Assembly (NCBI RefSeq): GCF_011320225.1
Contig: NZ_JAAOEN010000010.1
Location: forward strand, 62,001 to 126,000
Reading direction: 5' to 3'
Length of the DNA: 64,000 nt
From: Phytoactinopolyspora limicola
Lineage (GTDB): Bacteria; Actinomycetota; Actinomycetes; Jiangellales; Jiangellaceae
Numbering within the stretch: position 1 is the first letter of the stretch; each line of letters begins with the position of its first letter. Below are positions 8,694 through 52,207 of this stretch, piece after piece. The position numbers and the translations under genes were made by a program. The notes below the pieces were generated by a model that searched no databases, was not told the DNA's origin, and saw nothing but the letters and a program-made list of their open reading frames with translations.

Positions 8694-11132
8694 ATGAGCG
8701 AAGAACCCGAGCCGCCACGGGGGCCGGCCACGTCGGGCCCGAAGTATCGCGCTGCCAAGCCACGGAAGAAGGGCTGGCGGCGCCTGTTCACGTGGAAAGC
8801 GCTGCTGTTCACCTTCACCGGGTTCGTGGTGCTGGTGGCCGGCGCCGTCGCGTTCGCCTTCATCACCATCGACGTTCCCGAGGCCAACGACTTCTCGACG
8901 TCGCAGACGACGATCATCTACCACGACGACGGCCAGCGAGAGTTGGGCCGGTTCAGCGTCGAGAACCGGGAGATCGTCGACTCGGAGGACATCCCCGACA
9001 CGTTGAAGGCGGCGGTCGTCGCTGCTGAAGACCGTTCGTTCTACGAGAACCCCGGCTTCTCCATCACCGGTATCGGCCGGGCCGCGTGGGACCAACTACG
9101 GGGCACCCCGTCGGCCGGTGGTGGCTCCACCATCACCCAGCAATACGTGAAGAACTACTACCTGACGCAGGATCAGACCTGGAGCCGCAAAATCCAGGAG
9201 ATCGTCATCGCGGTCAAGATCGACCAAGACATCGACAAAGACCAGATTCTGACCAGCTATCTGAACACGATCTGGTTCGGCCGGGCCTCCTACGGGGTAC
9301 AGACCGCGGCGCAGGCATATTTCGGTGTCAACGTTGACGAACTCGACCTGGCCCAGAGCGCCGCCCTGGCCGCCATCCTGCGCTCACCCTCGTTGTACGA
9401 CCCCGCGGCTAGCGAGTCGAATGCCGCCCGGTTCGAGCAACGCTTCCAGTACGTACTCAACGGCATGGTCACGACGGGAGCCATCGACCAACAGACCGCC
9501 GCCGAGACGGAGCCGCCGGACATCGAGCCCGAACGGCGGCAGAACCGCCTGGGCGGACCCAACGGCTACCTGCTGATGATGGTCCGCGACGAACTACGCG
9601 AGCTGGGTTTCGACGACACCGAGATCGACACCGGCGGGCTCCGGGTGACCACCACGTTCAACGCGCAGGCGCAACGCGCCGCGGTACGGGCGGTCGACGA
9701 GGAACGGCCCACCGAGGACGCCGAACGTGTCCACATCGGGCTGGCTGCGGTGCGGCCCGGCGACGGCGCGGTGGTCGCCATCTACGGTGGTCCGGACGCG
9801 GTGGAGCAGAACTTCAACGACGCTGTGGATGCCCGCATCCAGCCGGGTTCGACGGTGAAGCCGTTCACCTTGATCGCCGGCCTCGAAGAGGGTTACTCAC
9901 TGACCAGCCGGTTCGCTGGAAACTCGCCGTTCGAGGCGGAGGGGCTGGGGCCGCCGGTACGTAACCAGGGTGACCAATCGTGGGGATGGTCGGTCGACCT
10001 CCTACAGTCGATGGAACGCTCGATCAACACGGCGTTCGTGGATCTCGCCCGAAACATCAACTCGCAGACCGTGGTCGACGCCCTGGTGCGGGCCGGTATC
10101 CCGGAGGACACCCCAGGGCTCGAGGCCAACCCCCGGGTGACGTTGGGGATCGCATCGGTGTCCGCCCTGGAGATGGCCGAGGCGTACGCCACGCTGGCGG
10201 CCGGTGGGGTGCACGCCGACACCTACACGGTGGCGCAGGTGACCGACCCCTCCGGCGACGTCCTCTACGAACGTGAGGTCGAGCCGGAGCAGGTCTTCGA
10301 CCCTGACATCACCGCCGACGTCACCTATTCGCTGACCCAGGTGATCGAGAGCTGGCGTGGTACCGGCGGGACGGTCCGCGACCTCAACCTGGGCCGCCCA
10401 TTGGCCGGCAAGACCGGAACACATGAGGACCTGACGTCGTGGTTCGCGGGTTATACGCCGCAACTGGCCACGACGGTCGCGTACTTCCGCGGTGAGGGAG
10501 CCGAGGCTGGCACCGAGTCATTGCGCGGGGTGGCCGGCATGGACGTCTTCTTCGCCGGTCAGTACCCGGCCCGTACCTGGGCGGCGTTTATGCGCGCCGC
10601 CTTGGACGGCGTGCCGCCCGAAGAGTTCCCTGAGCGAGGCAACATCAACGGCTACGTGCCGGCCGCTCCGCCGTCTGGTGGAGGCGGTGGTGGCGGCGGC
10701 GGCGGTGGCGGCGGTGGTGGTGAATCCGGCCGCGGTGACGAGGGCGGCGCTGACGAGTCCGGTGATGACGGCGGCGCTGACGAGTCCGGTGATGATGGCG
10801 GAGCCGACGAGGGCGGCGGCGACGAGTCCGGCGATGACGGTGGTGCCGATGAGGGCGGCGACGACGGTGGTGCCGATGAGGGCGGCGACGACGGTGGTGC
10901 CGATGAGGGCGGCGACGAATGGGGCGGCGACGACAACGGCGCCGACGAAGGTGGCAACGACAACGGCGGCGGTGACAACGGTGGCGGGAACGACGACGGC
11001 GGCACCGACGAGGGTGGCGGTAATGACAACGGCGGCGGCGAAGGTGATGACGGAGTCGACACCACCAGAGCTACCAGCGTGGTCGCTGCCCGGGAGTGGG
11101 AGCTGGTGAACGGAGTGAAGTTGGTGCACTGA
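8694..11132 (+). CDS. Class A penicillin-binding protein (transglycosylase/transpeptidase)
   Basis: 812 residues. A basic cytoplasmic segment and one membrane helix (residues 35-60) are followed by a GT51 glycosyltransferase domain (EDRSFYENPG near 111, GGSTITQQYVKNYY near 142) and a penicillin-binding transpeptidase domain (STVKPF near 384, SIN near 442, KTGT near 572). It polymerises and cross-links peptidoglycan outside the membrane. The last 140 residues are a low-complexity tail: Gly14, then repeated Asp/Glu/Gly/Ala units, ending in a short non-repetitive AREWELVNGVKLVH. Actinobacterial PonA proteins often carry Pro-rich tails, and an acidic glycine tail is unusual. Alternative start 12 codons upstream. 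Confidence 0.93.
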   Translation: MSEEPEPPRGPATSGPKYRAAKPRKKGWRRLFTWKALLFTFTGFVVLVAGAVAFAFITIDVPEANDFSTSQTTIIYHDDGQRELGRFSVENREIVDSEDIPDTLKAAVVAAEDRSFYENPGFSITGIGRAAWDQLRGTPSAGGGSTITQQYVKNYYLTQDQTWSRKIQEIVIAVKIDQDIDKDQILTSYLNTIWFGRASYGVQTAAQAYFGVNVDELDLAQSAALAAILRSPSLYDPAASESNAARFEQRFQYVLNGMVTTGAIDQQTAAETEPPDIEPERRQNRLGGPNGYLLMMVRDELRELGFDDTEIDTGGLRVTTTFNAQAQRAAVRAVDEERPTEDAERVHIGLAAVRPGDGAVVAIYGGPDAVEQNFNDAVDARIQPGSTVKPFTLIAGLEEGYSLTSRFAGNSPFEAEGLGPPVRNQGDQSWGWSVDLLQSMERSINTAFVDLARNINSQTVVDALVRAGIPEDTPGLEANPRVTLGIASVSALEMAEAYATLAAGGVHADTYTVAQVTDPSGDVLYEREVEPEQVFDPDITADVTYSLTQVIESWRGTGGTVRDLNLGRPLAGKTGTHEDLTSWFAGYTPQLATTVAYFRGEGAEAGTESLRGVAGMDVFFAGQYPARTWAAFMRAALDGVPPEEFPERGNINGYVPAAPPSGGGGGGGGGGGGGGGESGRGDEGGADESGDDGGADESGDDGGADEGGGDESGDDGGADEGGDDGGADEGGDDGGADEGGDEWGGDDNGADEGGNDNGGGDNGGGNDDGGTDEGGGNDNGGGEGDDGVDTTRATSVVAAREWELVNGVKLVH
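10836..10916 (+). repeat. Three perfect 27-base tandem repeats inside the penicillin-binding protein tail
   Basis: The 27-base unit beginning GACGGTGGTGCCGATG occurs three times head to tail at 10836, 10863 and 10890 with no differences. It encodes DGGADEGGD-type nonapeptides in frame. Degenerate versions flank it on both sides. Identity at synonymous positions points to recent slippage, so repeat number probably varies among strains. Confidence 0.9.
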
Positions 11133-11215
11133 CGGAGCGGTGGAGGTGTTGCTCTGGCGACACCGATGTCACTCCGATTGCGCACTAACTCCGCTCCGTT
11201 CACCAACTCCACTCC
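11093..11215. repeat. Long imperfect inverted repeat spanning the end of the penicillin-binding protein gene
   Basis: The final coding bases and first 3-prime bases (11093-11139, containing GAGCTGGTGAACGGAGTG) recur as reverse complement at 11170-11215 (containing CTCCGCTCCGTTCACC). The reverse strand of the second arm reads VELVNGAELV, close to the protein's own C-terminal WELVNGVKLV, so this looks like an inverted duplication. RNA from either strand could fold into a long stem, and the two genes here converge, so it may also act as a terminator. No T-run follows. Confidence 0.6.
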
Positions 11216-21701: not shown

Positions 21702-21757
21702 CCATGATCATTGGCTTTAGTCCACCGAATCCGGTGGGAAAAAGCCAATGATCATGG
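21702..21757. repeat. Palindromic repeat A (CCATGATCAT family) between narK and nasA
   Basis: The left arm CCATGATCATTGGCTTT (21702-21718) is repeated exactly as reverse complement at 21741-21757. The 22-base centre contains a second small hairpin (CCACCG-AAT-CCGGTGG). It belongs to the family also found at 37556-37639, 45789-45858 and 51069-51144. Unlike those, it is not joined to a stop codon. It could end or attenuate narK transcription. Confidence 0.9.
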
Positions 21758-28512: not shown

Positions 28513-29702
28513 CCGCCGCGCCACTGGCCGGTTTCACCGTCGCGCTGACCGCGGCCCGGCGCCGCGAGGAGCTGGGCAACCTGCTGGAACGCCGCGGGGC
28601 ACGAGTGATCCAGGCACCGGCGATCCGGATTGTTCCCCTGGACGACGACGCCGATCTGCTGGCCGCGACCCAGGCCTGTATCGAGACTCCCCCGGACATC
28701 GCAGTCGCGACCACCGGGATCGGGTTCCGCGGATGGATGGAAGCCGCCGACGGCTGGGGCCTGGGTGAGGTGTTGCTGGCCCGGCTCACCTCGGCGACGC
28801 TGTTGGCTCGTGGGCCCAAGGCGCGCGGCGCGATCCGGGCGGCCGGCCTGGTGGACGATTGGTCGCCAGCATCGGAGTCCTCCGCCGAAGTGCTCGAATA
28901 CCTCCTAGAGCGGGACCTGACCGGCGTCCGGGTGGCCGTGCAACTACACGGAGAACCGCTGCCGGACTTCACCGATGCGCTAGTAGCGGCAGGAGCGACG
29001 GTGGTGGCGGTGCCGGTATACCAGTGGACACCACCGGACGACACCGCGCCGCTGGCCCGGGTTGTTGACGCCGTAGTGCACCGAACGGTGGACTGTGTCG
29101 TCTTCACCAGCGCCCCGGCCGTGGCGAGCTTCCTGGCTCTGGCGGGTCAGAAGGGTGTTGTGGACGACGTTCTCGCGGCTTTCCGCGATGGGGTGGTGCC
29201 AGCATGTGTTGGCCCGGTTACTGCCGGCCACCTCGAACGCCTCGGGGTGATCACCGTACAGCCACGGCGGGCCCGCCTCGGCGCCCTCGTCCGCGAGATC
29301 GTCGGGGAGCTACCGGCGAGTTGCCGCATCATTCGGGCCGCCGGTCACGAAATCCAGCTACGCGGACACGCGGTGCTGGTGGACGGAGCGGTGCGGGAGT
29401 TGCCGCCGGCCTCGATGGCGGTGTTACGGGCATTGGTGCGACGGCCGGGGGTGGTGGTTCGCCGATCGGATCTGCTCAGTGTGCTGCCCGGCGGTGGCAG
29501 TGATGAACACGCCGTGGAGATGGCGATCACCCGCCTGCGTGGTGTGCTGGGAAGCAAGATAATCCAGACCGTCGTTAAACGTGGGTATCGCCTTGCCCAC
29601 GAACCCGAGTCGACCGGTGAGAAGTACGGCATAGAGGTTCCCCGGCCGGGTGCCGTGTCGGACGAGGGCAACGTCGGACGTCCTGCGACGCGTGGTCCCT
29701 GA
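28509..29702 (+). CDS. Uroporphyrinogen-III synthase fused to a winged-helix DNA-binding domain
   Basis: 397 residues. Residues 1-260 are HemD-like (GFTVALTAARRREELGNLLERRGA; VVFTSAPAVASFLALA). Residues 290-380 are an OmpR/PhoB-type winged helix (PPASMAVLRALVRRPGVVVRRSDLLSVLPGG ... VEMAITRLRGVLG). This fusion is known beside nirBD in actinobacteria and is thought to act as a regulator, to supply sirohaem precursor, or both. It begins as GTGA on the nirD stop. Its last 15 codons and the TGA stop lie in the first 65-base repeat, so the C-terminus has been rewritten by the repeat. Confidence 0.9.
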   Translation: MTAAPLAGFTVALTAARRREELGNLLERRGARVIQAPAIRIVPLDDDADLLAATQACIETPPDIAVATTGIGFRGWMEAADGWGLGEVLLARLTSATLLARGPKARGAIRAAGLVDDWSPASESSAEVLEYLLERDLTGVRVAVQLHGEPLPDFTDALVAAGATVVAVPVYQWTPPDDTAPLARVVDAVVHRTVDCVVFTSAPAVASFLALAGQKGVVDDVLAAFRDGVVPACVGPVTAGHLERLGVITVQPRRARLGALVREIVGELPASCRIIRAAGHEIQLRGHAVLVDGAVRELPPASMAVLRALVRRPGVVVRRSDLLSVLPGGGSDEHAVEMAITRLRGVLGSKIIQTVVKRGYRLAHEPESTGEKYGIEVPRPGAVSDEGNVGRPATRGP

Positions 29703-29790
29703 CGCTCGCGGTGCAGGACGCTACGGACGAGGGCAACGTCGGACGTCCTGCGACGCGTGGTCCCTGACGCTCGCGGTGCAGGACGCTACG
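29661..29790. repeat. Perfect 65-base tandem duplication of the palindromic element
   Basis: Units at 29661-29725 and 29726-29790 are identical at all 65 bases. Each contains CGTCCTGC...GCAGGACG arms and begins GACGAGGGCAACGTCGG. The first copy contains the stop codon of the hemD-like gene; the second is intergenic, and its extension to 29801 matches nirD. Perfect identity suggests a recent duplication. Confidence 0.95.
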
Positions 29791-29840: not shown

Positions 29841-30542
29841 GTGAGTTGCGACGTGGTGGCACAACACGCGCTCGTCGCGACGGCTCACGGGACGCGTGAT
29901 CCCGACGGTCCCGTTGTGCTCGAGCACCTACTCGACGAGGTAAGACGACACCTCCCAGACGTACCTGTGCGGATCGCCTACGTCGACGTGATCGAGCCGA
30001 TGCTGGACGAGGTACTCGCCGAGTTGCCCGGGACACCGGTAGTGGTACCGATGTTCTTGGCCTCGGGTTATCACGTGCGAGTGGACGTTCCTGAAGCGGT
30101 GGCCGCTACCGGACATGTGGCGGTCGTCACTCCGGCGCTCGGGCCGGACGATGCAGTGGTCGCCGCGGTGGCCGACCGGTTACGTGAGGCGGCGCGGGGC
30201 GAGCTACCCGACGCGGTTGTCCTCGCCGCCGCGGGGTCATCGGACAACGACGCGCTCGCTGAGGTGGAGGTAGCCGCCACCAAGCTGGCTGCCGTGCTGC
30301 GGCGAGACGTCGTAGCTGGTTACATCACAACCGCGGCGCCCACGGTGGCCGAGGCGGTTGCGTCCTTGCGGTCGGCGGGATTCCAGCGGGTTGGTGTGGC
30401 GTCATATCTGCTGGCACCGGGGTTGTTCCTTCGCCGTTTGGACGACGTCGGCGCCGACGTCGTCGCACCCCCGATCGGGGTCCATCCGGCCGTCGTCGAC
30501 CTCATCGTCACCCGCTACCGGGAAGCCGCCGCCGGACGCTGA
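29841..30542 (+). CDS. Sirohydrochlorin chelatase-like protein (CbiX/SirB family)
   Basis: 233 residues from a GTG with GGGGAC upstream. The opening ALVATAHGTRDPDGP is the CbiX metal-site motif (AHGSR), and the second half has a parallel domain (VVLAAAGSSDNDALAEVE; GVASYLLAPGLFLRRL). CbiX-type enzymes insert cobalt or iron into sirohydrochlorin. Beside nirBD, a ferrochelatase role for sirohaem is the natural inference, since sirohaem is the NirB cofactor. In this window no SUMT (cysG/cobA) is seen. The stop codon starts a 14-base tandem repeat. Confidence 0.87.
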   Translation: MSCDVVAQHALVATAHGTRDPDGPVVLEHLLDEVRRHLPDVPVRIAYVDVIEPMLDEVLAELPGTPVVVPMFLASGYHVRVDVPEAVAATGHVAVVTPALGPDDAVVAAVADRLREAARGELPDAVVLAAAGSSDNDALAEVEVAATKLAAVLRRDVVAGYITTAAPTVAEAVASLRSAGFQRVGVASYLLAPGLFLRRLDDVGADVVAPPIGVHPAVVDLIVTRYREAAAGR

Positions 30543-30610
30543 GAGCGGGGCGCTGAGAGCGGGGCGCTGAGAGCGGGGCGCTGAGAGCGGGGCGCTGAGA
30601 GCGGGGCGCT
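30541..30610. repeat. Five perfect 14-base tandem repeats after the CbiX-like gene
   Basis: The unit GAGAGCGGGGCGCT occurs five times without a gap or mismatch. It begins in the stop codon of the CbiX-like gene, because CGCTGA is both unit junction and gene end. Length variation among strains is likely. Confidence 0.95.
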
Positions 30611-30744
30611 GACCCCGTCCGCCGGCGGGGCCGAAAACGCCTTGCGGCGACCCACTCGCCGGCCAGATGATGCCTGCAGACTGGGCGCGCCGCCCAGGCC
30701 TACACATCGGCGCGTACCTCCGAACGTGGGAAGCAGGGAGACGA

Positions 30745-36121: not shown

Positions 36122-37575
36122 TTGGAGCCCATAGCGTCGCCGACGTCCGCGCTGCCGAGGCCGCCCTCATGGCGACCCTTCCCGATGGTGCGCTGATGCA
36201 GCGGGCCGCGGCCGGCCTGGCAGCTGTGTGTGCCGGTGTCCTGGGCGGCCCGTACGGGGCCAGGGTCGCCCTGCTGGTCGGCGGTGGTGACAACGGCGGC
36301 GACGCCTTGTGGGCGGGAGCGCGGCTGGCGCGACGCGGCGCGCGGGTCGACGCGGTGCTGCTCCGGCACGACCGCGTACACACCGCGGGGATGGCTGCCT
36401 TCATACAGGCCGGCGGCCGGGTGGTCTCGGAACCGGGCCGCCCGTCGACGCCGGACGCGGACCAAGCCATCCAGCGAGCCGACCTCGTCATCGACGGCAT
36501 AGTGGGTATCGGTGGTAGCGGCGGGTTGCGGCCCGAGGCCGCCCGGCTGGCCGAGATGGCCAGCGCCCAGGCCGGGCTCGTCGTCGCCGTGGACCTGCCC
36601 AGCGGCGTCGAACCCGACAGCGGAGAGGTGTCCGGCCCAGCGGTGCGTGCCGACGTCACGGTGACGTTCGGCACCCACAAGATCGCCTTGGTGGTTGATC
36701 CCGCGGCGGAGCTGGCCGGCCATGTTGAATTCGTCGACATCGGGCTGGCGCCGTACCTGCCGGAGCCGGCTGTCGAGGTTTTGGAACCCGCGGATGTGTC
36801 GGTCCTATTGCCGCGGTCCGGGCGAAACTCGGACAAGTACCGGCGTGGTGTGCTGGGGTTGCTGGCCGGCTCGACGCGCTATCGCGGTGCAGCTGTACTG
36901 GCGGCCGGGGCGGCGGTGCAGGGTGGCGCCGGGATGGTCCGACTCGCTGGGCCGAGCGACGTGACCAGTATGGTGCTGGCTCGCTGGCCGGAGATCGTGG
37001 CCAGCGCCGACGTCGAGAACACCGGTCGGGTGCAGGCATGGGCCGTGGGCTCGGGGCTCGGTGACGACCGTGGCGAAGAGATCGCGGCGACTCTGGAGTC
37101 AGGGCTGCCGGTGCTGGTCGACGCGGACGCGTTGCGTCATCTGCCGTCGCCCTTGACCTCGCCGGCGTTGCTCACCCCACACGCCGGCGAGTTGGCCCGG
37201 ATGGTGGGTGCACAGCGCTCCGACGTCGAAGCGCGTCGGTTCCATCATGCGCGTGAGGCCGCCCGTCGGTGGGCCGCCACGGTGTTGCTCAAAGGGTCCA
37301 CCACCCTCATCGTCGGGCCAGATGGGAGAGCCCGCGCGAACCCGACCGGTACACCGGCGCTGGCTACCGCCGGATCGGGTGACGTACTCGCTGGTCTGGC
37401 CGGCGCGTTGCTCGCCGCCGGGCTGGATCCGCTGGACGCCGGGAGTGTCGCGGCGTATATCCATGGCCAGGCGGGTCGGGCCGCGGCGGCTGCGGTCGGT
37501 GCGCCCGGTGCGAGTTCTGTGCTCGACGCGTTGCCTGGTGTGCTCGCCACGTTCGTCCCACCTCCCTCCCCATGA
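36118..37575 (+). CDS. Bifunctional NAD(P)H-hydrate repair enzyme (epimerase plus dehydratase)
   Basis: 485 residues. The N-terminal YjeF domain (1-200, with [16 protein letters not shown]) epimerises damaged NAD(P)HX, and the C-terminal ribokinase-like domain (230-485, with [20 protein letters not shown]) dehydrates it using ADP or ATP. The fusion is common in bacteria (NnrD/NnrE). Translation starts on the acpS stop (GTGA). Its own stop codon TGA (37573-37575) lies in the left arm of palindrome B, so the last residues VPPPSP come from the repeat. Confidence 0.95.
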
Positions 37576-37639
37576 TCATGAACACTTTGCCGTGCGATAG
37601 CACGGCAAAGTGTTCATGATCATGGGGAGGGAGGTGGGA
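37556..37639. repeat. Palindromic repeat B joining nnrDE to alr
   Basis: A 39-base left arm (37556-37594) pairs perfectly with 37601-37639 around a 6-base loop CGATAG. The outer part CCTCCCTCCCCATGATCA is shared with other family members; the inner part (GAACACTTTGCCGTG) is different. The left arm contains the nnrDE stop codon, and the right arm ends GGGAGGGAGGTGGGAG, which is 11 bases before the alr GTG and is its only good ribosome site. In the folded RNA that ribosome site is paired with the pyrimidine stretch before the nnrDE stop. Confidence 0.95.
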
Positions 37640-45788: not shown

Positions 45789-45858
45789 CCTCTCCCCATG
45801 ATCATTGGCTTTTGACTACCGAATTCGGTAGTCAAAAGCCAATGATCATGGGGAGAGG
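45789..45858. repeat. Palindromic repeat C at the 3-prime end of the lacI gene
   Basis: 70 bases that read identically on both strands, with 35-base perfect arms and no loop; the centre is ACCGAATTCGGT. Left arm contains CTCCCCATGATCATTGG. The TGA stop of the lacI gene (45846-45848, minus strand) is within it, so the last residues LSP come from the repeat. It lies between lacI and the DUF4185 promoter and might stop read-through. Confidence 0.95.
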
Positions 45859-49819: not shown

Positions 49820-50545
49820 GTGCTGCTCTTAGCCCTGGACACAGCTACGCCGGCGGTCACTGTCGCGCTGCATGACGGCGCTCGTGTCGTCGCGGAATCC
49901 ACCACGGTCGACGCACGTCGGCACACTGAGCTCCTGATCCCTGCCGTGCTAGACGCACTCGCCGAGGCGGGCGCCGATCGGCGCGACGTCACCGAGATCG
50001 CCGTGGGGGTAGGGCCCGGCCCGTTCACCGGCCTACGGGTCGGCCTGGCCGCCGCGACGACGTGGGGTGCAGCACTCGACCTGCCTGTGCGGGGTGTGTG
50101 CAGCCTGGACGTCATCGCGTACGAGGTCGTGCGGTCCGGATCCGCGGGCGCGCAGCCGTTCGCGGTCGCCACCGATGCCCGTCGACGAGAGGTCTACTGG
50201 GCGACGTACGACGCAGCCGGCCAGCGCACCGACGGTCCACACGTCGGGCCGCCGCTCACCCCCGACGAGCACGTCGGGACGATGCTGGCCGCACTGCCCG
50301 CCGCCGGCGCTGGGGCGCGGCTCTACCCGGCAGCGTTCGCGCAGGTCGTCGAGCCTGAGTATCCATCGGCAGCGGTCCTGGCCACCGCGGTGGCGGCGAG
50401 TGCGGTCGAGATCGTTGAACCGCAACCCCTTTACCTGCGTCGCCCTGACGTCACGGTCACGACGGGCCGCAAGAGCGTGCTCGGATCAGCGTCGACCGGA
50501 TCAGCGTCGACCGGATCAGCGCAGTCGGGTCGGCGCCAACGGTGA
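49820..50545 (+). CDS. tsaB: tRNA threonylcarbamoyladenosine biosynthesis protein TsaB
   Basis: 241 residues, GTG start. The N-terminal LLLALDTATPAVTVALHDG and the segment IAVGVGPGPFTGLRVGLA are TsaB signatures. It forms the t6A complex with TsaD and TsaE. The C-terminus has a 15-base unit GGATCAGCGTCGACC repeated twice plus a partial copy (50483-50520), encoding GSASTGSAST, not part of the fold. The stop overlaps the rimI start by four bases. Confidence 0.94.
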   Translation: MLLLALDTATPAVTVALHDGARVVAESTTVDARRHTELLIPAVLDALAEAGADRRDVTEIAVGVGPGPFTGLRVGLAAATTWGAALDLPVRGVCSLDVIAYEVVRSGSAGAQPFAVATDARRREVYWATYDAAGQRTDGPHVGPPLTPDEHVGTMLAALPAAGAGARLYPAAFAQVVEPEYPSAAVLATAVAASAVEIVEPQPLYLRRPDVTVTTGRKSVLGSASTGSASTGSAQSGRRQR

Positions 50546-51084
50546 CCGTCACCATCCGGCCGATGCGACCGGAGGACATCGAGGCGGTGCTCCCACTGGA
50601 ACGGGAGCTCTTCGCCGGAGATCCACCGTGGACGGCGGAGATCTTCCGGTCCGAACTGGCGCGGATGCCGGCCAGCCGTTGGTACGTCGTCGCCGAACGA
50701 AGCCGCGGCGAGGCGGGTCGCGCCGGAGCCGGCGAGGTCGATGCGATGATCACCGACGCGACGCACCCGGTACCGATGATCGTCGGCTACGCCGGCGTCC
50801 GGCTGCCCGCGGCCGGTGGTGACCTGGCCGATGTCCACACCATCGCGGTGGCCCCGGACCAGCAGCGTCAAGGGATCGGCAGTCGGCTGCTGACCGCCCT
50901 CGCCGACCGGGCGCAGGCTTGTGCGGCAGGTGCGCTGACCCTGGACGTGCGTGAAGACAACGCGGCCGCCCTCTCCTTCTACGGCCAGCACGGCTTCACC
51001 CGGATCGCCGTGCGCCCCGCGTACTTCCGCGGCCGGCGGGATGCGATCGTCATGCACCGCCCCCTCCCCCCTCCCTCCCCATGA
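50542..51084 (+). CDS. rimI: Ribosomal protein S18 N-acetyltransferase RimI
   Basis: 180 residues, GNAT fold. TVTIRPMRPEDIEAVLPLERELFAGDPPW is the RimI N-terminus, and VAPDQQRQGIGSRLLTALA is the acetyl-CoA loop. A 15-residue insertion (EVDAMITDATHPVPM region) follows the first strands. It acetylates the S18 N-terminus or related proteins and is typically coupled with tsaB/tsaD. The stop TGA (51082-51084) is in palindrome D, so the C-terminal PPPSP comes from the repeat. Confidence 0.92.
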   Translation: MTVTIRPMRPEDIEAVLPLERELFAGDPPWTAEIFRSELARMPASRWYVVAERSRGEAGRAGAGEVDAMITDATHPVPMIVGYAGVRLPAAGGDLADVHTIAVAPDQQRQGIGSRLLTALADRAQACAAGALTLDVREDNAAALSFYGQHGFTRIAVRPAYFRGRRDAIVMHRPLPPPSP

Positions 51085-51144
51085 TCATTGGCTTTTGACT
51101 ACCGGATCCGGTAGCCAAAAGCCAATGATCATGGGAAGGGAGGG
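51069..51144. repeat. Palindromic repeat D joining rimI to tsaD
   Basis: 76 bases with two mismatches in 38-base arms, centred on ACCGGATCCGGT. The left arm CCTCCCTCCCCATGATCA contains the rimI stop codon; the right arm ends AAGGGAGGG, seven bases before the tsaD GTG, and is its ribosome site. Same layout as repeat B. The inner sequence TTGGCTTTTGACTACC is close to that of repeat C. Confidence 0.95.
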
Positions 51145-51151
51145 ATAATCG

Positions 51152-52207
51152 GTGTCCGTGGCGGATGACCCCCTGATTCTTGGTATCGAAACCTCCTGCG
51201 ACGAGACCGGCGTTGGCCTGGTCCGCGGCACGACGCTGCTGGCCAACGCGGTCGCCAGCAGCGTCGACGAACACGCCCGGTTCGGCGGCGTCGTCCCGGA
51301 GGTGGCCAGCCGGGCACATCTGCAGGCGATCACCCCGACGTTGCGACGTGCGCTGGACGAGGCCGGAGTGCGGCTCACCGACGTCGACGCGGTAGCGGTC
51401 ACCGCTGGTCCCGGACTAGCCGGTGCGCTGATGGTGGGTGTCTCGGCCGCCAAGGCCCTCGCGGTCGCCATCGACAAGCCGTTGTACGGCGTCAACCACC
51501 TGGTGGGGCACGTCGCCGCGGAGCAGTTGGAGAACGGCCGGCTGACCGAACCAGTCGTGGCGTTGCTCGTCTCCGGCGGGCACACCGAGATCCTGGAGGT
51601 GACCGACATCGCAACGGCGGCCGAACTGCTGGGGCAGACGCTGGACGACGCCGCCGGAGAGGCCTTCGACAAAGTGGCCCGACTGCTCGACCTTCCCTAC
51701 CCGGGTGGTCCACATATCCAGCGGGCCGCGGCCACGGGTGACCCCACAGCCATCCGGTTCCCCCGCGGACTGACCAGTCAGCGCGACATGGAGCGGCACC
51801 GGTACAACTTCTCGTTCTCCGGACTCAAGACCGCCGTCGCTCGCTGGGTGGAATCGGCCCAGCGCGACGGCGCGCCGGTACCCGTCGACGACGTAGCCGC
51901 GGCGTTCCAGGAGTCGGTGGCCGACGTGCTCACCCGCAAAGCCGTTCTGGCCTGCCAGGAACGTGGTATCACCACCATGGTGCTGGCCGGCGGCGTCGCG
52001 GCGAACGCGCGGATCCGCGATCTCACCCGCGAGCGATGCGCGGCCGCTGGGATCGCGCTGCGCCAGCCCCGGCTGTCGCTGTGTACGGACAACGGCGCGA
52101 TGATCGCCGCACTCGGTGCCGCGGTCGTTGAACGCGGCTTGCCGCCCAGTTCGATCGACTTCGGCGCCGACTCGTCGTTGCCGGTCACCGAGGTGCTCGT
52201 GCGGTGA
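51152..52207 (+). CDS. tsaD: tRNA N6-threonylcarbamoyladenosine transferase TsaD
   Basis: 351 residues. The family motif [16 protein letters not shown] starts the protein, the iron-binding His pair is in [14 protein letters not shown], and the third ligand region is [11 protein letters not shown]. It transfers threonylcarbamoyl to A37 of ANN-decoding tRNAs. It starts with GTG directly after palindrome D, whose right arm supplies its Shine-Dalgarno. Confidence 0.96.

Follow-up and report, generated by a model that had tools for sequence, protein, structure and literature searches.

The palindrome at the rimI–tsaD junction of Phytoactinopolyspora limicola probably belongs to a dispersed family of mobile palindromes, as a solo copy without coding content; the cognate gene lies elsewhere in the genome, enclosed between palindromes. 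Copies, positions, enclosed genes, matched palindrome pairs and presence or absence between species were observed directly, and binding, cutting and copying by the encoded protein, as well as termination of transcription, would be the accompanying activities. The analysis started from a stretch of 64,000 nucleotides, hereafter the window, and was extended to the whole genome (G000), to two sister species (G001 and G002), to 22 genomes of the order and to 393 genomes drawn from the class.

Structure of the palindrome at rimI–tsaD

The palindrome occupies positions 51069-51144 of the window (76 bp, unstranded). Its 38-nt arms (51069-51106 and 51107-51144) adjoin with a spacer of 0 and are complementary at 36 of 38 positions (95%), leaving two mismatches. 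This full extent includes site-specific arm extensions around a 52-bp core at 51081-51132, which consists of ATGATCAT, 36 bases and a second ATGATCAT, with an interior of the type that we call family B (TTGGCTTTTGACTACCGG). The rimI ORF (50542-51084, plus strand) ends within the left arm at TGA 51082-51084, and the tsaD ORF (51158-52207, plus strand, with an ortholog-supported start) is open from GTG 51152. Seven bases ahead of that GTG stands the Shine-Dalgarno-like stretch AAGGGAGGG (51136-51144). The names rimI, tsaD, nnrDE and alr are those given by the preliminary description from the sequence alone; its account of the junction, a palindrome of 76 bases with the rimI stop in one arm and a ribosome-site-like stretch in the other, was reproduced in full.

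Four copies lie within the window. A family-A core at nnrDE-alr (37572-37623) and a family-B core with two flanking minus-strand genes (45798-45849) both hold the stop of the upstream gene within an arm, and a partly decayed family-B core (21704-21755, 22 of 26 pairs) follows 23 nt behind a TAA stop; as palindromes, all three are unstranded. The statement that the nnrDE-alr element has the same outer arms and another centre thus corresponds to the two interior families. Likewise, both proteins end in PPPSP as described: the rimI ORF reads ...MHRPLPPPSP at its C-terminus, and the ORF preceding alr ends ...VPPPSP. A search of Rfam with 401 bases around the palindrome returned 16 matches, every one of them to a miRNA model and under its gathering score; any long hairpin would, in our view, elicit such matches.

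Further repeats were seen in the window. An imperfect inverted repeat with 54-bp arms (11099-11210, 72% complementary) is unrelated to both palindrome families, and the others are a GGC/GAC-rich repeat array (10673-11005), an exact 65-bp tandem duplication (29659-29788) and a 14-bp tandem array (30517-30626).

Genome census and interior families

Genome-wide (6.59 Mb, 40 contigs), the pattern ATGATCAT-N16..46-ATGATCAT had 129 matches and the reversed control pattern 0, which bears out the earlier view that the shared layout exceeds chance. Exactly 36 intervening bases were found in 125 of the genome matches. The 125 copies examined below come from 696 kb fetched around the hits, and comprise 109 copies with ATGATCAT intact at both ends and 16 with one to four arm mismatches. 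By their interiors, 71 belong to family A (GAACACTTTGCCG) and 54 to family B. The core is usually bounded by CCC and GGG, with C at the three preceding positions 1-3 in 116, 123 and 122 of the 125 copies, respectively. Other long inverted repeats are rare, as only nine of score ≥15 outside the families were found in the same 696 kb.

Long palindromes of a minor class, with the ends GGTGATCGT...ACGATCACC, occur at C37:20980, C13:13549 and C12:379580 in G000 and at rimI–tsaD in G004 (L222), where the palindrome contains the rimI stop when read by eye. Two convergent copies (C18:24697 and C36:315715) have identical 30-bp flanks, so one of them may belong to a larger duplication.

Placement relative to genes

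Genes were called with a purpose-built hexamer caller that was trained on G000 (88% coding) and reused on G001 and G002, and its start positions are approximate. None of the 125 copies lies inside a gene, compared to 86.9% of random windows. The copies are distributed over 73 tandem, 41 convergent and 11 divergent junctions, where scaling by intergenic sequence predicts 77.9, 13.9 and 33.2 (chi-square p 2e-15), so that convergent junctions are enriched approximately three-fold and divergent ones are scarce. A copy is faced by 155 gene 3' ends, of which 139 have their stop at most 35 nt ahead of the core or inside it. For 66 of the 155 the stop falls inside the core, in 57 cases at the TGA of ATGATCAT. 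Among the convergent copies, both stops lie in the two arms at 9 of 41 and one stop at 19 of 41. Start codons showed no clustering around the 125 copies like that of the stops. The sister species, in which copies were required to match at ≥15 of 26 pairs, gave the same picture: the 45 copies in G002, including two with arm changes, are 26 tandem, 16 convergent and 3 divergent, the 24 in G001 are 13, 8 and 3, and none lies inside a gene.

The placement has a consequence for annotation. In the stretches examined, 57 proteins terminate at the palindrome TGA; the last residue is proline in 53 of them, 32 of the 57 have Ser-Pro at the end, and annotators should be warned that such C-terminal residues derive from the repeat and its flank.

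The start of tsaD and the proposed translation module

The two window junctions had been proposed to represent a reusable intercistronic module that couples the translation of two genes, the left arm supplying the stop codon and the right arm the ribosome-binding site. This layout does exist at rimI–tsaD and nnrDE-alr, and the enrichment at gene junctions predicted from it was found: no copy is inside a gene, 57 stops share one TGA, and placement is not random with respect to reading frames (0 of 125 inside a gene vs 87% of random windows). The predicted stop-to-start orientation did not hold up. The palindrome is symmetric and therefore has no such orientation of its own, 41 of the 125 copies are convergent with no start following, and only 7 of the 73 tandem copies combine a stop in the arm with a start at most 35 nt away, four of them with a Shine-Dalgarno-like stretch. 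Translation coupling is therefore rejected as a rule for these copies, and as the explanation of the element we regard it as hardly credible.

The tsaD start itself was compared across 21 rimI–tsaD loci of the order. Orthologs fit the second GTG, at 51158, better than 51152, and the start is thus probably GTG 51158, six bases further on. A script located a GATAAT, TACATT or TACAGT box 7-8 nt before the tsaD start in 18 of 21 loci; the remaining three, for which it had picked a wrong start, show the box by eye. In the window the box is GATAAT (51144-51149, plus strand), a conserved -10-like sequence 8 nt before the aligned start. Its presence in all 21 loci suggests that tsaD is transcribed from its own, leaderless promoter in the order. 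This box adjoining the start argues against the coupling proposal, as does the GGAGGG that several relatives have without any palindrome. Palindrome-free relatives (e.g. L226, L229, L232, L238) read ...GGAGGGATAATCG..., and their upstream frame stops, by eye, at its TAA. At the same junction, G002 has a palindrome of another family, G001 and G003 have apparent decayed palindromes (by eye), and G004 has a different, longer palindrome.

With regards to the other tandem copies, TANNNT was found 5-9 nt before the start of the following gene at a frequency of 0.19 (n=72), compared to 0.01 in tight tandem pairs (n=136), 0.10 in wide copy-free tandem gaps (n=187) and 0.16 at divergent starts (n=160). 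By these frequencies, genes behind tandem copies look like transcription starts and not like operon-internal genes. The copies tend to sit between transcription units, although wide gaps generally lean likewise.

A gene enclosed by palindromes

At E≤1e-30, an AbiEi/DUF559-like gene is present in exactly two copies in G000, one per palindrome family: C12:12627-13631 is flanked on both sides by family-B palindromes and C10:92362-93282 by family-A palindromes. Some palindrome pairs around a gene of this family, in G000 and its relatives, stand about 1.03-1.18 kb apart. Twelve palindrome pairs in the G000 stretches are less than 1.8 kb apart, of which two enclose this gene and ten enclose other ORFs, and five of these ten combine palindromes of different families. 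Gene remnants were searched for near the other, solo palindromes of G000, and none were found. In six units that were read, a single ORF occupies the whole enclosed stretch, and the upstream palindrome ends about 50-190 nt ahead of the protein match. One gene copy with internal deletions (L290 in G009) still lies between palindromes.

Within the order, the gene was found in 18 of 22 genomes (E≤1e-30), and the flanks of all 62 matches were inspected. For the 48 with at least 67% identity to the query, a 52-bp palindrome stands on both sides in 31, upstream only in 9, downstream only in 4 and on neither side in 4; the null gave flanking palindromes in 5 of 3,007 windows, with none skipped. An earlier null (3 of 1,492 windows) omitted windows holding TGATCA and was too kind. 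For the 14 more distant members, the strict 52-bp scan found palindromes on both sides of one and on one side of another. A length-free scan found ATGATC/GATCAT-type ends on both sides of ten (L347, L348, L349, L351, L378 and L380-L384) and on one side of two (L350 and L374), and L375 and L319 showed weak inverted repeats of other sequence only. Most of the 14 have the common interior type GTTCCCT, and with this interior and the similar distance to tsaD of the placeable copies they are probably one inherited locus. At L319 (G008), with a 46% identical gene, the weak palindromes are of a CTGGGGA..GTCCG.. type and stand on both sides (17-18 of 26 pairs).

The two palindromes of a gene match each other. 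From 44 of the 48 close gene copies, the interior agreement of upstream and downstream palindromes was 0.88 within a gene vs 0.47 between genes, and the own partner was the best-matching palindrome in 21 of 30. Protein identity and palindrome identity also correlate, if weakly (Mantel r 0.28, 38 genes, 0 of 2,000 permutations).

Among the 393 genomes of the class, the gene is present at ≥58% identity in 18, each of which carries palindromes, compared to 2 of the 375 others. However, 17 of the 18 gene-bearing genomes are from one order, so they are not independent tests. The independent case is G026 from outside the order, with one gene at 58% and palindromes on both sides. Palindromes without a gene at E≤1e-30 were found in G021 (16 copies) and G005 (4 copies), and G002, a 93% complete genome, has three gene matches, none with CAAC-type palindromes. 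The class-wide protein search, which scored five candidates per genome, yielded 11 further loci outside the order at 41-49% identity. Four of them (L365 in G126, L369 in G323, L364 in G346 and L363 in G028; 45-49%) lie beside palindromes with ATGATC/GATCAT or GTGATC/GATCAC ends, e.g. CCATGATCTGGTGGGATTTTCGG.., loci in G096, G168 and G124 have other inverted repeats of score 12-16, and the remaining four have nothing above 11.

Domains and predicted structure of the encoded protein

The protein resembles a fusion of an AbiEi-type DNA-binding half with a C-terminal half similar to DUF559/Vsr-like nucleases, as judged from profile matches and predicted folds. Pfam AbiEi_4 matches 31 of 33 members, and the PADLOC AbiEi models match all 33. 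For DUF559, 16 of the 33 have a match at E≤0.1, the lowest value being 6.7e-4; in a set of six proteins it was listed for four and stayed under its cut-off in each of these. NCBIfam gave no informative family for the protein. In the predicted structure (pLDDT 79), residues 25-217 match the AbiEi antitoxin 6y8q (Foldseek E 6.7e-7; Z 10.7 with 184 residues aligned at rmsd 4.1). A match to Rv2827c was also obtained (Z 7.7 with 188 aligned at rmsd 5.6). As the whole-model PDB search tested the C-terminal half weakly, this half was modelled alone (pLDDT 77.5). It matches the endonuclease-like 3hrl (Z 7.2 with 87 residues aligned at rmsd 3.8), for which the sequence profile gave E 0.4. The next match is I-Bth0305I, a homing endonuclease (3r3p; Z 6.2 with 88 aligned at rmsd 4.9), and further matches reach at most Z 4.8. 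These fold matches are middling, with a best Foldseek E of 0.56. Invariant positions in the C-terminal half include, among others, S.LE, DV, ELDGR, H and FRD..RDN. According to PMC7319586, AbiEi proteins bind, and repress through, inverted repeats, and I-Bth0305I is described in PMC3943268 as dimerising on a target of nearly 60 bp.

Symmetry of the arms

Among the outer 21 base pairs, double-sided changes are more frequent than under independence (17 vs 3.2 in family A and 24 vs 5.1 in family B), and 37 of these 41 double changes still pair. In transcript orientation, the arms showed no wobble bias (GU:AC 24:24, 18:19 and 39:36). With counts this even, selection for an RNA hairpin is not apparent; we set that explanation aside on this result, and the symmetry seems to be kept at the DNA level. 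The pairing also continues into the site-specific flanks, where 6.86 of 13 flank pairs match vs 5.41 with permuted partners (0 of 2,000), and the extension reaches up to 25 bp. Such flank-extending arms suggest that one arm was copied from the other at the DNA level.

Distribution and site comparison between species

Of the 22 genomes of the order, 19 contain the exact N36 pattern. In the sample of 393 genomes from the class it was found in 20, and the 371 genomes outside the order contributed a single one of these, G026 with six copies. Interiors vary by species, and length and ends are constant but fixed by the search pattern, which admits exactly N36. Copies within a species are closely similar and differ between species, as after recent amplification. 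By flanking-gene matches, only 2 of the 45 copies in G002 and 3 of the 24 in G001 face the same gene end as a copy in G000, a count that leaves out rimI–tsaD in G002. Filled sites were seen opposite empty or differently filled ones between species. One orthologous junction is an insertion hot spot, holding different palindrome types in G009 (L289), G019 (L282) and G010 (L298) and none in G017 (L300). Few shared sites, together with junctions that hold different types, are compatible with both site preference and movement. A clean, recent empty/filled pair with a target-site duplication was looked for between species and not found.

In G001 (L276) and G026 (L352), which belong to different taxonomic families, a gene-carrying unit stands directly behind apparent orthologs of one gene (protein ending ...DGGWKYLSTGAY...WA), and the G000 ortholog (C37:49212) has no element behind it. 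This common location may reflect a shared site preference or transfer.

Proposed mechanism and alternative explanations

For the mobile palindrome, we propose that a homodimer of the enclosed gene's product would recognise one half-site in each arm, and that this mode of reading would set both the symmetry and the length of 52 bp. The protein may cut at the palindrome, and repair would then copy the palindrome, or the palindrome-gene-palindrome unit, to new places. A palindrome acting as a paired half-site would account for the fixed length and ends, the family-specific interior, the matched pairs and the one gene per family. Copies would persist just behind stop codons because they do the least harm there and because the TGA of ATGATCAT closes the upstream frame, and they may additionally end transcription. 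At rimI–tsaD, a copy would have replaced the end of rimI and would now stand just upstream of the native tsaD promoter. Several results count against this mechanism: the gene-free palindromes of G021 and G005, the 4 of 48 close gene copies with no palindrome and the 13 with one, the lack of a gene with CAAC-type palindromes in G002, the 10 of 12 close pairs in G000 that enclose other ORFs, the weak Mantel correlation, the middling C-terminal fold matches, and the failure to find a target-site duplication or gene remnants.

A serious competitor, to which we give somewhat less than an even chance, is that the palindromes are retained because they work as bidirectional transcription terminators or 3'-end hairpins, with their spread being secondary. 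The 139 of 155 facing 3' ends at most 35 nt before the core or inside it, the approximately three-fold excess of convergent junctions and the promoter-like -10 motifs that genes downstream often have are all in line with termination. However, no T-tract follows the core, G being the most frequent base at every one of the 30 positions after it, and the transcribed strand has no G-U excess. Other long inverted repeats are rare (the nine of score ≥15 in the same 696 kb), the families are species-specific with mostly unshared sites, and termination leaves the enclosed genes unexplained. An autoregulated defence or regulatory gene with the palindrome as its operator, and solo palindromes as decoys or regulon sites, is unlikely. 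The AbiEi models do match all 33 members, AbiEi proteins repress via inverted repeats (PMC7319586), and an upstream palindrome about 50-190 nt before the protein match would suit an operator. Solo copies, however, are found behind stop codons and seldom at divergent junctions (11 of 125 vs 33 expected), a second palindrome usually stands at the 3' end of the gene, and copies are alike within and unlike between species, as after recent amplification. Ordinary REP or REPIN elements moved by a RAYT (Y1) transposase have the same placement, and a stop codon is frequently provided by REPs of the GTAG type (PMC3733652). Such a system is highly improbable here and was rejected, as PF01797 had 0 matches in G000 at E≤0.001, with 5 of 14 control genomes positive, and the palindrome ends in CCC-ATGATCAT instead of GTAG or CGTC.

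Comparison with known systems

Our best reading is that the palindrome system works like REPIN-RAYT without being a member and uses a different enzyme, with binding, cutting and movement being putative. According to PMC3733652, REPs are mainly found between ORFs that are unidirectional or convergent, and those of the GTAG type often provide a stop codon. As this placement and stop supply are already known from that source, the stop-codon placement seen here is not new. Like the REPIN-RAYT systems described in PMC3116915 and PMC3733652, the present one has dispersed extragenic palindromes behind genes and between convergent genes, termini able to supply a stop, and a cognate gene beside its own palindrome type. 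The differences are an AbiEi protein with a DUF559/Vsr-like half here instead of a Y1/HUH protein, one near-perfect unit of a fixed 52 bp of which usually two copies enclose the gene, and the lack of a GTAG/CGTC foot.

The C-terminal half resembles the catalytic domain of the EDxHD homing endonuclease I-Bth0305I with a middling score, and the target of nearly 60 bp given in PMC3943268 compares with 52 bp here, or 58 with CCC/GGG. Unlike the homing endonuclease, the present gene is not in an intron and is fused to an AbiEi half, its palindromes are dispersed, and its cleavage activity is putative. The N-terminal half is AbiEi by sequence (31 of 33) and fold (6y8q, Rv2827c) and thus recalls the AbiE type IV toxin-antitoxin systems; here, however, a single gene with a nuclease-like extension stands between palindromes, and in the six units read the enclosed stretch, where an adjacent AbiEii toxin gene was looked for, is filled by that one ORF. 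Mycobacterial interspersed repetitive units (MIRUs), an actinobacterial repeat at overlapping stop/start codons, are likewise tied to TGA at gene ends, but are direct repeats and not palindromes.

The enzyme and the enclosed-gene architecture are new as far as we have seen, and the open-licence literature yielded no description of a pairing of palindromes with an AbiEi/DUF559-like gene. We further consider, at just under an even chance, that a new class of bacterial mobile DNA is involved, in which homodimeric AbiEi-nuclease fusions would copy fixed-length palindromes that combine the roles of paired half-sites, element end and harmless landing pad at stop codons, well beyond the order in Actinobacteria, with arm symmetry and flank extensions arising by DNA-level arm copying. 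The class may be wider than the order because the 45-49% identical genes elsewhere adjoin ATGATC...GATCAT or GTGATC...GATCAC palindromes.

To our knowledge, repeat-enzyme pairs like REPIN-RAYT are known only with Y1 proteins. If the proposed reading is true, an unrelated second enzyme with the same pairing of one family and one gene would mean that palindrome mobility evolved more than once. It would also hint at what a group of AbiEi/DUF559-like genes does, and would provide dozens of natural protein-palindrome pairs for decoding recognition.
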